Source of the DNA: Acidimicrobiaceae bacterium
GTDB taxonomy: Bacteria > Actinomycetota > Acidimicrobiia > Acidimicrobiales > RAAP-2
DNA: 34,118 nt
Direction of reading: 5' to 3'
NCBI GenBank assembly: GCA_027365145.1
Contig: DAHXOA010000137.1
Location: forward strand, 1-34,118
Shown here: positions 1,931 through 5,355 of the stretch, piece by piece
Numbering within the stretch: the first letter of the stretch is position 1
How the letters are laid out: every line of letters starts with the position of its first letter
Notes under the pieces: model-generated
The model's database searches: none
What the model was told of the DNA's origin: nothing
What the model saw: only the letters and a program-made list of their open reading frames with translations
Position numbers and translations under genes: made by a program

Positions 1931-2578
1931 TCAGGCCGTCGGAGCGCCCCCGGAGCGGCGGGCCGCGACCCAGGTGAACCGCTGGAGCGCACCACCGGGC
2001 GTGGAGTGGTCCTCCTCCCGTTCCGCAACCAGCTCGAAGTCGTCTCCGAGCATCTTGGTCAGCTCCTCTGCTCCATACCGGGTCACCGGCAGGCCGGAGC
2101 ACTGCTCGGGGCCGTCGGGGGCGAACGTGGCCAGGATCACCGTACCCCCGGGGGAGAGGGCGGCGTCGAGGACGCGCCGGTAGGCGAGCACCTCTTCGCC
2201 GGTGAAGAAGTGGAGGACGGCCCGGTCATGCCACAGCCCGTACCGGCGGGGTGGGTCCCAGGTGAGGACGTCTCCCACCATCCAGTGGGCCCGGGGATCG
2301 TCGCCGACGGCGCTCCGGCTCAGCTCCAACGCGGCCTCGACGATGTCGAGCACAGTGATGTCGGCGAACCCGCGCTCGAGCAGCGCGCGGAGCAGCGGAG
2401 AGGCTCCCCCTCCGACGTCGACAACCGCAGTGCCGGGTTCCAGGCCGAGCGACTCGACCAGCTCCAGGGAGACCGTGGGCTCACGCTGGTACCAGCTCAC
2501 CGCGTCCGGTCGGCTGCGCTCGTAGACCGAGCTCCAGTGGACGGCGCGGTCATGCTCGCTCGTCGGCCCCGTTACCAC
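1931..2578 (-). CDS. Class I SAM-dependent methyltransferase
   Basis: VVDVGGGASPLL (motif I), ITVLDI and GDVLTWDPP motifs; GTG start with TAGCCT 7 nt upstream. Confidence 0.85.
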   Translation of the reverse strand: MVTGPTSEHDRAVHWSSVYERSRPDAVSWYQREPTVSLELVESLGLEPGTAVVDVGGGASPLLRALLERGFADITVLDIVEAALELSRSAVGDDPRAHWMVGDVLTWDPPRRYGLWHDRAVLHFFTGEEVLAYRRVLDAALSPGGTVILATFAPDGPEQCSGLPVTRYGAEELTKMLGDDFELVAEREEDHSTPGGALQRFTWVAARRSGGAPTA

Positions 2579-2628
2579 GGGGCCGAGGCTACCCCGGGCC
2601 CATCGCCGACGTCGGGCAGCTGATGAGG

Positions 2629-2634
2629 TACCCT
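2629..2634 (+). promoter_or_regulatory. -10-like box (TACCCT) for the uORF-MarR-ABC operon
   Basis: TAnnnT hexamer 6 nt upstream of ATG 2641; same spacing recurs at many genes in the window. Confidence 0.5.
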
Positions 2635-2640
2635 AACCAG

Positions 2641-2685
2641 ATGGCGAGCCCTCTTCCGGCAACCCCGGGACGTCGACGGAGATGA
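2641..2685 (+). CDS. Candidate leaderless leader peptide MASPLPATPGRRRR upstream of the MarR gene
   Basis: ATG GCG AGC CCT CTT CCG GCA ACC CCG GGA CGT CGA CGG AGA TGA. TACCCT box 6 nt upstream. Its stop overlaps the MarR start (ATGA). Confidence 0.5.
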   Translation: MASPLPATPGRRRR

Positions 2686-3302
2686 GCCAGGACCTGGCCA
2701 ACCGCTCCATCGGCTCACTCTCCGGGCCCGAGCCAGCGGTCGTCGTCGGCGACCCGGTCGTCGGGATCGCTCGGACCCTGGCCATGTTGTCGCGGACCCT
2801 GGACGAGGGCTGCATGGCGGCAGGGCTCACGCTCGCCCAGTACCGGGCGCTCCTCTTCGTCGCGCTCCGGCCGTGGCGGGCCGCCGCGTTGGCCGGGGAG
2901 ATGGGGGTGCGCCGGCCGACCTTGAGCGGGATCATCGACAGTCTCGATCGGGCCGGTCTGGTGGAGCGTCGCTCCGTCGCGGACGACCGTCGGGGCGTGA
3001 GCATCAGCCTCACCCCGACCGGGAGCGCCGTCCTACGTGCGGTGGAGTCCGACATGGGCATGCGTCTCGGTCGCTCCATCGACCGGAGCAGCGGTGGTAC
3101 CGCCATCGATCCGGCGGTGCTGGCCGGGATGCTCCGTGCCCTGTTGTGCGGGATGGATCGATCGGGAACAGAGGGGCAGGCGGGCACAGACGCCCAGTCG
3201 CAGGGGAAGGGCTGGACAGAGGGGCAGGCACCGGGACGCGAGCCAGGGACAGGATCGGGAGCCCGGGATCCCGGCGACCTCCCGGAGGGAGGGACCCCAT
3301 GA
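2682..3302 (+). CDS. MarR-family transcriptional regulator
   Basis: wHTH pattern 'LTLAQYRALLFVALRPWRAAALAGEMGVRRPTLSGIIDSLDRAGLVERRSVADDRRGVSISLTPTG'. Confidence 0.88.
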   Translation: MSQDLANRSIGSLSGPEPAVVVGDPVVGIARTLAMLSRTLDEGCMAAGLTLAQYRALLFVALRPWRAAALAGEMGVRRPTLSGIIDSLDRAGLVERRSVADDRRGVSISLTPTGSAVLRAVESDMGMRLGRSIDRSSGGTAIDPAVLAGMLRALLCGMDRSGTEGQAGTDAQSQGKGWTEGQAPGREPGTGSGARDPGDLPEGGTP

Positions 3303-4336
3303 GCCAACCGGAAGGAGCGGGACGCACGTCGATCCAGCTGGAGGGGCTGGGCGCCGGTCAGCACTCGATCGCAGTGGACGGCCTGGCCAAATCCTACGGT
3401 GACCTGGTCGCTGTGAAGGGGGTCACCTTCGTCGTCGACGCCGGGGAGACGTTCGGCTTCCTCGGCCCCAACGGCGCAGGGAAGTCCACCACCATCTCGA
3501 TGCTCTGCACCCTCGTCGATCCCACCTCGGGTCGGGCCCAGGTCGCCGGCTTCGACGTGGTGACCCAACGGTCGTCGGTGCGCCAGCACATCGGTCTCGT
3601 GTTCCAGGACACCACGCTCGACGACTACCTCACGGCGGCGGAGAACCTGAAGTTCCACGCTGAGCTCTACGGAGTGCCCCGCGGGACAGTCGCCCGGCGA
3701 CTCGCCGATGTCATGGAGATGGTGGGGCTCGCCGACCGAGCCGACAGTCTCGTGCGGACGTTCTCGGGCGGCATGAAGCGGCGTCTCGAGATCGCGCGGG
3801 GTCTGCTCCACTCCCCGCGCGTCCTCTTCCTCGACGAACCGACCGTCGGCCTCGATCCCCAGACTCGCTCGAACATCTGGGAGTACGTGACCGAGCTGAA
3901 ACGACGTGAAGGCATCACGCTCTTCCTCACGACCCACTACATGGACGAGGCCGAGTACTGCGACCGGATCGCCATCATGGACCACGGGTCCATCGTGGCC
4001 ATCGATACGCCCGAGGCGTTGAAGGCGAGCATCGGCGAGGACCGGGTGGAGCTCCACACCACCGACGACGCCGCCGCGCTCGCCGCGCTCGCCGACCGCT
4101 TCGGGATCGACGCCTCCGTCTCGGAGGGGGCGGTCGCCTTCCACGTTGCCGCCGGCGAGCAGTTCGTCCCCCGGCTCTTCGCCGAGCTCGGGGTGGGCAT
4201 CACGTCGATCCGCGTCGCTCGCCCGACCCTCGACGACGTGTTCATGACCTACACGGGGCGGACCATCCGCGACGCAGAGGCGTCATCGGGAGATCGCCTG
4301 CGGTCGTCCCCGTTCATGCGGGCGAGGAGGGGGTAG
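3299..4336 (+). CDS. ABC transporter ATP-binding protein, daunorubicin-resistance (DrrA) type
   Basis: Walker A GPNGAGKST, signature FSGGMKRRLEIARGL, Walker B VLFLDEPT, DrrA-like 'TTHYMDEAEYCDRIAIMDHG'. ATGA overlap with the MarR gene. Confidence 0.92.
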   Translation: MSQPEGAGRTSIQLEGLGAGQHSIAVDGLAKSYGDLVAVKGVTFVVDAGETFGFLGPNGAGKSTTISMLCTLVDPTSGRAQVAGFDVVTQRSSVRQHIGLVFQDTTLDDYLTAAENLKFHAELYGVPRGTVARRLADVMEMVGLADRADSLVRTFSGGMKRRLEIARGLLHSPRVLFLDEPTVGLDPQTRSNIWEYVTELKRREGITLFLTTHYMDEAEYCDRIAIMDHGSIVAIDTPEALKASIGEDRVELHTTDDAAALAALADRFGIDASVSEGAVAFHVAAGEQFVPRLFAELGVGITSIRVARPTLDDVFMTYTGRTIRDAEASSGDRLRSSPFMRARRG

Positions 4337-4338
4337 CA

Positions 4339-5355
4339 GTGGTGAGTGACCAGGGACAGCAGGTCGGCACCGGCAGTGCGCCGACTCCCGAGGGCCGACC
4401 GGTGCCGCGGGAGGGTTCCGGCGCCCCGCCGGTGGCGACGTCGGCAGTCGGCGCACCAGTGGTGGCAGCGGCACCACCAGCGGCAGTCGGCGCACCAGTG
4501 ACGGCAGCGGCTTCGGTCGTCGGCGTGCGGGTCGCCGGGGGAACCGTCAGCGACGACCTCCGGGCCATCAGGGTCGTGTGGAAACGGGAGCTGATCCGTT
4601 TCAGCCGTAACCGGATCCGCATCGTGACCTCGCTCGTCCAGCCCATCTTGTTTCTCTTCGTCCTCGGCACCGGCCTGTCGCCCATCCTGTCGGGCAGCGA
4701 CCACTTCAACTTCCGAACGTTCATGTTCCCCGGCGTCATCGGGATGACGGTGCTCTTCACGGCCATCTTCTCCGCCATCTCCATCGTGTGGGACCGGGAG
4801 TTCGGCTTCCTGCGGGAGATGCTGGTGGCTCCGGTGCACCGGAGCGCGCTGGTCCTCGGGAAGTGCCTGGGAGGGGCGACCGTGGCCACCATCCAGGGTG
4901 CGATCATGCTGGCGCTGGCCGGGGCGGTCGGCGTCCCCTACGACCCGTTGATGCTCGTCGTGCTGATCGGCGAGATCGCGTTGGCGGCGTTCGCGCTCAC
5001 GGTCTTCGGCGTGCTGATGGCCTCACGGATCTCCCAGATCGAGGCGTTCCAGGTCGTCACCCAGATGGTGGTCCTGCCGATGTTCTTCCTGTCGGGAGCG
5101 ATCTTCCCGACCAGCAAGCTCCCGCAGTGGCTGGCGGTCCTGACGAAGATCGACCCGCTCTCCTACGCGGTCGACCCGCTCCGCCGTGCCGTCTTTTCCC
5201 AGATCGCCCTCTCGCCCCGCCTGAACGCCTTGCTGAACCCGGGGGTGACGTGGAACGGGTGGAGGCTACCCACCCTCCTGGAGCTGGCCATGGTCGCGGT
5301 AGCGGCGGGAGTGATGCTCTTCGTGGCGATCCTCCAGTTCTCGCGGACCGACTGA
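4339..5355 (+). CDS. ABC-2 type transporter permease (DrrB-like)
   Basis: Hydrophobic C-terminal segments, 'VWDREFGFLREMLVAPVHRSALVLGKCLGGATVATIQG' and 'MFFLSGAIFPTSKLPQWL' motifs; directly downstream of the ATPase. Confidence 0.9.
   Translation: MVSDQGQQVGTGSAPTPEGRPVPREGSGAPPVATSAVGAPVVAAAPPAAVGAPVTAAASVVGVRVAGGTVSDDLRAIRVVWKRELIRFSRNRIRIVTSLVQPILFLFVLGTGLSPILSGSDHFNFRTFMFPGVIGMTVLFTAIFSAISIVWDREFGFLREMLVAPVHRSALVLGKCLGGATVATIQGAIMLALAGAVGVPYDPLMLVVLIGEIALAAFALTVFGVLMASRISQIEAFQVVTQMVVLPMFFLSGAIFPTSKLPQWLAVLTKIDPLSYAVDPLRRAVFSQIALSPRLNALLNPGVTWNGWRLPTLLELAMVAVAAGVMLFVAILQFSRTD

Follow-up and report, generated by a model that had tools for sequence, protein, structure and literature searches.

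A putative leaderless upstream reading frame coupled to a marR-drrAB operon in an actinomycete outside the mycobacteria

Why should a 14-codon open reading frame overlap the start codon of a MarR-family regulator gene, and does its arginine-rich end matter to the exporter genes behind it? The locus lies in a 34,118-nucleotide stretch of an Acidimicrobiaceae genome (contig DAHXOA010000137.1), called the window here. An earlier note on this DNA had described a leaderless upstream open reading frame (uORF) and proposed that stalling on its arginine codons tunes an efflux pump. On re-reading, the layout it gave proved exact to the base: TACCCT, a six-nucleotide spacer (AACCAG, 2635-2640), an ATG (2641-2643), 14 codons of which the last four encode arginine, and an ATGA overlap (Table 1). 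The uORF, MASPLPATPGRRRR*, reads ATG GCG AGC CCT CTT CCG GCA ACC CCG GGA CGT CGA CGG AGA TGA; it falls within the 5-50 aa range of small ORFs, and its TGA (2683-2685) lies inside the ATGA that opens marR in a different frame. The marR start assigned by the note, ATG 2682, also held, being the earliest possible in that frame and the sole ATG, GTG or TTG ahead of residue 35. Both species compared below also have an in-frame ATG at 2623 (MRYPNQ..., window 2623-2640), which would give a 20-codon uORF if the transcript began upstream.

The genes marR, drrA and drrB can reasonably be predicted to form an operon, since drrA opens in a second ATGA and passes the TIGR01188 profile, and an ABC-2 permease comes next. 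The ATPase scores above the DrrA subfamily cut-off and adjoins the permease, as in a DrrAB-type exporter. These overlaps and profile matches bear out the operon-like chain described earlier.

Table 1. Features around the marR start and its neighbours, in window coordinates
Feature	Position	Strand	Evidence or remark
Methyltransferase gene, divergent, SAM-dependent, apparently leaderless too	1931-2578	-	PF13649
Methyltransferase -10, TAGCCT	2586-2591	-	N7 before its GTG; N6 in the congener
23-nt block CAGCTGATGAGGTACCCTAACCA, promoter core and candidate MarR operator	2617-2639	+	Identical in the congener
-10 element TACCCT (TANNNT)	2629-2634	+	Across the genome TANNNT peaks 6-7 nt ahead of predicted starts
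Predicted transcription start, at the first base of the uORF ATG	2641	+	From N6 spacing
Predicted leaderless 14-codon uORF, MASPLPATPGRRRR	2641-2685	+	Congener: equal length and coupling, as MVGPLSLSRGRRPV
Four Arg codons, CGT CGA CGG AGA	2671-2682	+	Run not kept: RRPV in the congener
ATGA stop/start overlap, uORF/marR	2682-2685	+	Sequence; also in the congener
marR, MarR-family regulator, 206 aa	2682-3302	+	PF12802 and PF01047 above gathering scores
Second ATGA overlap, marR stop/drrA start	3299-3302	+	GTGA in the congener
drrA-like ABC ATPase gene	3299-4336	+	TIGR01188, 348 bits against a cut-off of 312.45
drrB-like ABC-2 permease gene, start codon uncertain	4339-5355	+	PF01061; TIGR01247 (drrB) 195.6 bits, below the cut-off of 223

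Leaderless initiation leaves a recognisable spacing between the -10 element and the start codon. About half of the genome (0.98 Mb) was scanned, and a simple codon model predicted 775 genes, 751 of them with usable starts. TANNNT stands six nucleotides (N6) before 35 of these starts and seven (N7) before 26, that is 61 of 751, against an expectation from internal start-like codons of about 0.2 per spacing and about 0.4 for both. The peak was also seen in a congener, of whose genome about a fifth was counted, and each of the 12 leaderless orthologue pairs whose starts align has retained the -10. On these grounds TACCCT-N6-ATG is the modal leaderless signature in this genome. The uORF carries its -10 at exactly this spacing in both species, placing the predicted transcription start on the A of its ATG, and leaderless initiation at 2641 is well supported by these signals, as the note had supposed. 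The result bears on a second reading, in which the frame of the uORF is open by chance, ribosomes reach marR directly from a 41-nt leader, and conservation reflects promoter and operator DNA only. We consider this unlikely: any lineage that uses such starts would read an ATG placed right on the predicted +1 as a leaderless start.

A scan of GTDB genomes yielded one usable relative, the congener (JAKADK010000004.1, G001), since the loci with DrrAB orthologues fetched from other genera of the family have no recognisable copy of this marR upstream. The congener keeps the -10, the N6 spacing, the ATG, the ATGA and the 14-codon length; a simple gene model chose a later marR start there, although ATGAGC is present. 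The MarR proteins are 71% identical, so that in this one comparison the conserved layout is not mere recency; retention of the ATG is partly confounded, because it sits at the edge of the conserved promoter block. Thirty of the 45 uORF bases agree, and the 15 differences fall 5/5/5 over the three codon positions, with no sign of peptide-level selection between the two species. In this congener, then, the linkage (14 codons and ATGA) is kept and the peptide has changed, the arginine run passing from RRRR to RRPV with CGT CGA identical in both. The conservation that the earlier note looked for was found for the ATG and the ATGA and was lost for the four arginines; neither loss of the uORF nor ordinary indels, which it had held would count against it, were seen in the sole usable relative. 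An unconserved peptide, and a 23-nt block conserved as DNA with third positions included, would also fit a chance frame; against it, the exact 14-codon length has survived differences at a third of the interior bases.

Does RTGA coupling of such ORFs exceed what chance would give? Short ORFs that lie close to the next gene and begin 6-7 nt behind a TANNNT were compared with all short ORFs and with those at off-spacings. Of these leaderless-placed ORFs, 12 of 17 end in an exact RTGA overlap with a potential start codon, against 341 of 1198 short ORFs overall (p=3e-4) and 18 of 64 off-spaced ones (p=0.002); when restricted to predicted starts, the figures are 7 of 17 against 204 of 1198 (p=0.016) and 10 of 64 (p=0.04). 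Such enrichment counts against a chance frame. At N6, five of eight short uORFs share exactly 4 nt with the gene that follows, at its predicted start, whereas 14 off-spacings together gave ten such overlaps, about 0.7 per spacing, so the chance that a site of this kind is coincidental is roughly 15-20%, or one in five or six, conservation left aside. RTGA overlaps result easily when the second codon begins with A, which we counted against coupling. In the congener the excess is weaker and in the same direction (6/10 as against 216/775; p=0.03); since orthologues are common to both genomes, it does not count as a separate sample.

All 4 leaderless cases retained the coupled layout at unchanged length in the congener, as did 20 of 77 controls (p=0.006, approximate only because the controls take in nested ORFs and very similar loci); the 20 control ORFs, keeping the layout by chance or recency, lend some weight to the view that the marR uORF might do the same. 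Besides marR, the arrangement is kept in three other cases: VSRRPNRAPGTCR/VSRPPIHAPGTCP before a PfkB kinase gene, VLERPAP/VLERPLP ahead of moaC, and an ORF of 45 aa, MARSRKLVKPAAALG..., leaderless-placed, well conserved in the congener and coupled to a gene for an AMP-binding enzyme (L141:4562-4699, minus strand). The last probably encodes a genuine small protein, one that gene callers may overlook. Three further leaderless-placed, RTGA-coupled short ORFs precede genes for the regulators MerR, FUR and FUR (L073:100-162, L139:1690-1737, L144:15551-15637); with MarR, transcription-regulator genes stand behind 4 of the 11 coupled ORFs examined, numbers too small for a claim of enrichment.

In mycobacteria, "coupled" leaderless small ORFs that overlap the next gene by RTGA are over-represented, and their linkage is kept while the peptide is free (Shell et al. 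2015, PMC4633059). The present case resembles this class in its RTG at the inferred 5' end, its 5-50 aa ORF, its TGA within the RTGA of the next gene, the genome-wide over-representation, and a linkage that persists across species though the peptide changes. It differs in that the host is not a mycobacterium, the uORF precedes a MarR-DrrAB operon and its start is placed from sequence. In Mycobacterium tuberculosis, uPPE2 and ppe2 share an AUGA overlap, and ppe2 expression needs translation of the uORF, mainly through termination-reinitiation (PMC11260477). Like the present uORF, uPPE2 is short, out of frame and joined to the downstream gene by AUGA; unlike it, uPPE2 has a Shine-Dalgarno site and a B12 riboswitch in front of it, whereas the marR uORF is apparently leaderless, without a riboswitch-like leader. 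The layout is hence already known from mycobacteria, and the uORF of marR-drrAB is most likely a further case of the coupled leaderless class.

We therefore favour, with a probability of about 0.75, a leaderless uORF that delivers ribosomes to marR by termination-reinitiation, independently of its peptide and under MarR control at the promoter, because the mycobacterial class fits closely and reinitiation at an AUGA has been demonstrated for ppe2. The marR-drrA-drrB mRNA would start at the A of ATG 2641 and have no leader. A 70S ribosome would initiate on the 5'-terminal AUG, translate the 14 codons, stop at the UGA, step one base back and begin anew on the marR AUG that overlaps this stop; a second relay of this kind may follow at the ATGA between marR and drrA. 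The uORF would thus act as a ribosome-delivery device in which the peptide sequence is irrelevant, regulation probably being transcriptional, through MarR binding over the -10. Termination-reinitiation, as the earlier note had it, is accordingly a likely route, given the leaderless signal, the RTGA excess and the layout in the congener; its dependence on an arginine-rich peptide did not stand. A missing Shine-Dalgarno site was unusable as proof of coupling, the predicted anti-Shine-Dalgarno pairing upstream of marR being ordinary (-4.4 kcal/mol against a median of -4.9 for non-leaderless genes). An energy of this size would also allow ribosomes to start at marR directly, weakly aided by Shine-Dalgarno pairing, as a chance uORF frame would need.

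The arginine codons deserve separate treatment, since pausing on them could in principle alter marR-drrAB expression in response to arginine or a drug. All four stand directly before the stop and include the rare AGA (0.8 per 1000) and CGA (5.7 per 1000); the congener's uORF has three arginines; and among 505 open frames of 14 codons that run up to an RTGA, only 2 end in RRRR. There is also a precedent: Mycobacterium smegmatis has polycysteine leaderless small ORFs that act as attenuators (Canestrari et al. 2020, in the account given through PMC9031893 and PMC4633059). According to that account these are likewise short leaderless ORFs that lie ahead of an operon and repeat codons for a single amino acid, but theirs are Cys-rich, with conserved relatives, and precede Cys-related genes, whereas here the Arg run is unconserved and no Arg genes follow.

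The evidence from the locus itself points the other way. The run is not a conserved one, given RRPV in the congener, and the even spread of differences over codon positions shows no bias. Comparable frames average 16% Arg, and 20% of the 505 hold four or more arginines. Predicted folds are no better than shuffles (z-scores of -0.68 and -1.24 in this genome; for the congener, +0.30 and +0.32), so that over this range, -1.24 to +0.32, no switchable structure is indicated, and no terminator-like site was seen. No Arg-metabolism gene lies downstream, where MarR, the DrrA-like ATPase and the ABC-2 permease follow. Moreover, a ribosome that pauses on codons 11-14 would also sit over the start codon of marR, and such a pause would therefore be more likely to block marR initiation than to help it. 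Regulation by Arg limitation or drug stalling, as the note proposed, thus found no support, and we rejected an arginine attenuator on the conservation, codon-position and folding tests, regarding it as very improbable. The narrower version, in which the CGT CGA pair of both species and the extra arginines here slow ribosomes under Arg-tRNA shortage or a drug and so change reinitiation at marR, seems to us just as improbable.

The invariant 23-nt block CAGCTGATGAGGTACCCTAACCA exceeds the 11-nt conserved run of the other leaderless pair that has diverged most (74% protein identity). The simplest reading is that the block, lying over the -10, may be the MarR operator; no strong palindrome was found within it, only 6-bp palindromes. 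It was rejected as a regulon motif: at up to 3 mismatches each congeneric genome holds a single copy, and the four other genomes tried hold none. The block could instead be the promoter of the divergent methyltransferase gene, or a symmetric -10 common to both genes, the uORF then being incidental, since TACCCTA reads TAGGGT on the opposite strand. This is hardly credible. The methyltransferase gene has its own leaderless promoter (Table 1), which is why we assign the block to marR, and the distance from block to methyltransferase start is not kept (38 nt here, about 123 nt in the congener), whereas that to marR is 42 nt in both; the shared symmetric -10 was ruled out on the same two grounds.

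The methyltransferase start has a feature of its own. A perfect 10-bp inverted repeat, TCGGCCCCGT-TACC-ACGGGGCCGA (window 2563-2586), spans its GTG (2576-2578) beside the TAGCCT element and is a possible operator; by eye, a less perfect version occupies the same place in the congener. Another genus of the family (G035) has a 55%-identical relative of the methyltransferase near a different MarR-family gene (L008:230-859, L008:1510-1851).

Taken together, the locus offers a concrete, conserved example of leaderless-uORF coupling in a non-mycobacterial actinomycete genus, and counts across the genome suggest that this genus, too, uses the coupled class of mycobacteria. Gene callers miss such ORFs, and yet it is the 5' end of the mRNA that decides translation of the downstream regulator. 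Were the arginine reading true, the uORF would be a leaderless arginine or translation-stress attenuator for a DrrAB exporter. If the ribosome-delivery model is true, the response of the operon to translation stress would arise from leaderless initiation and coupling, not from a sensor peptide.
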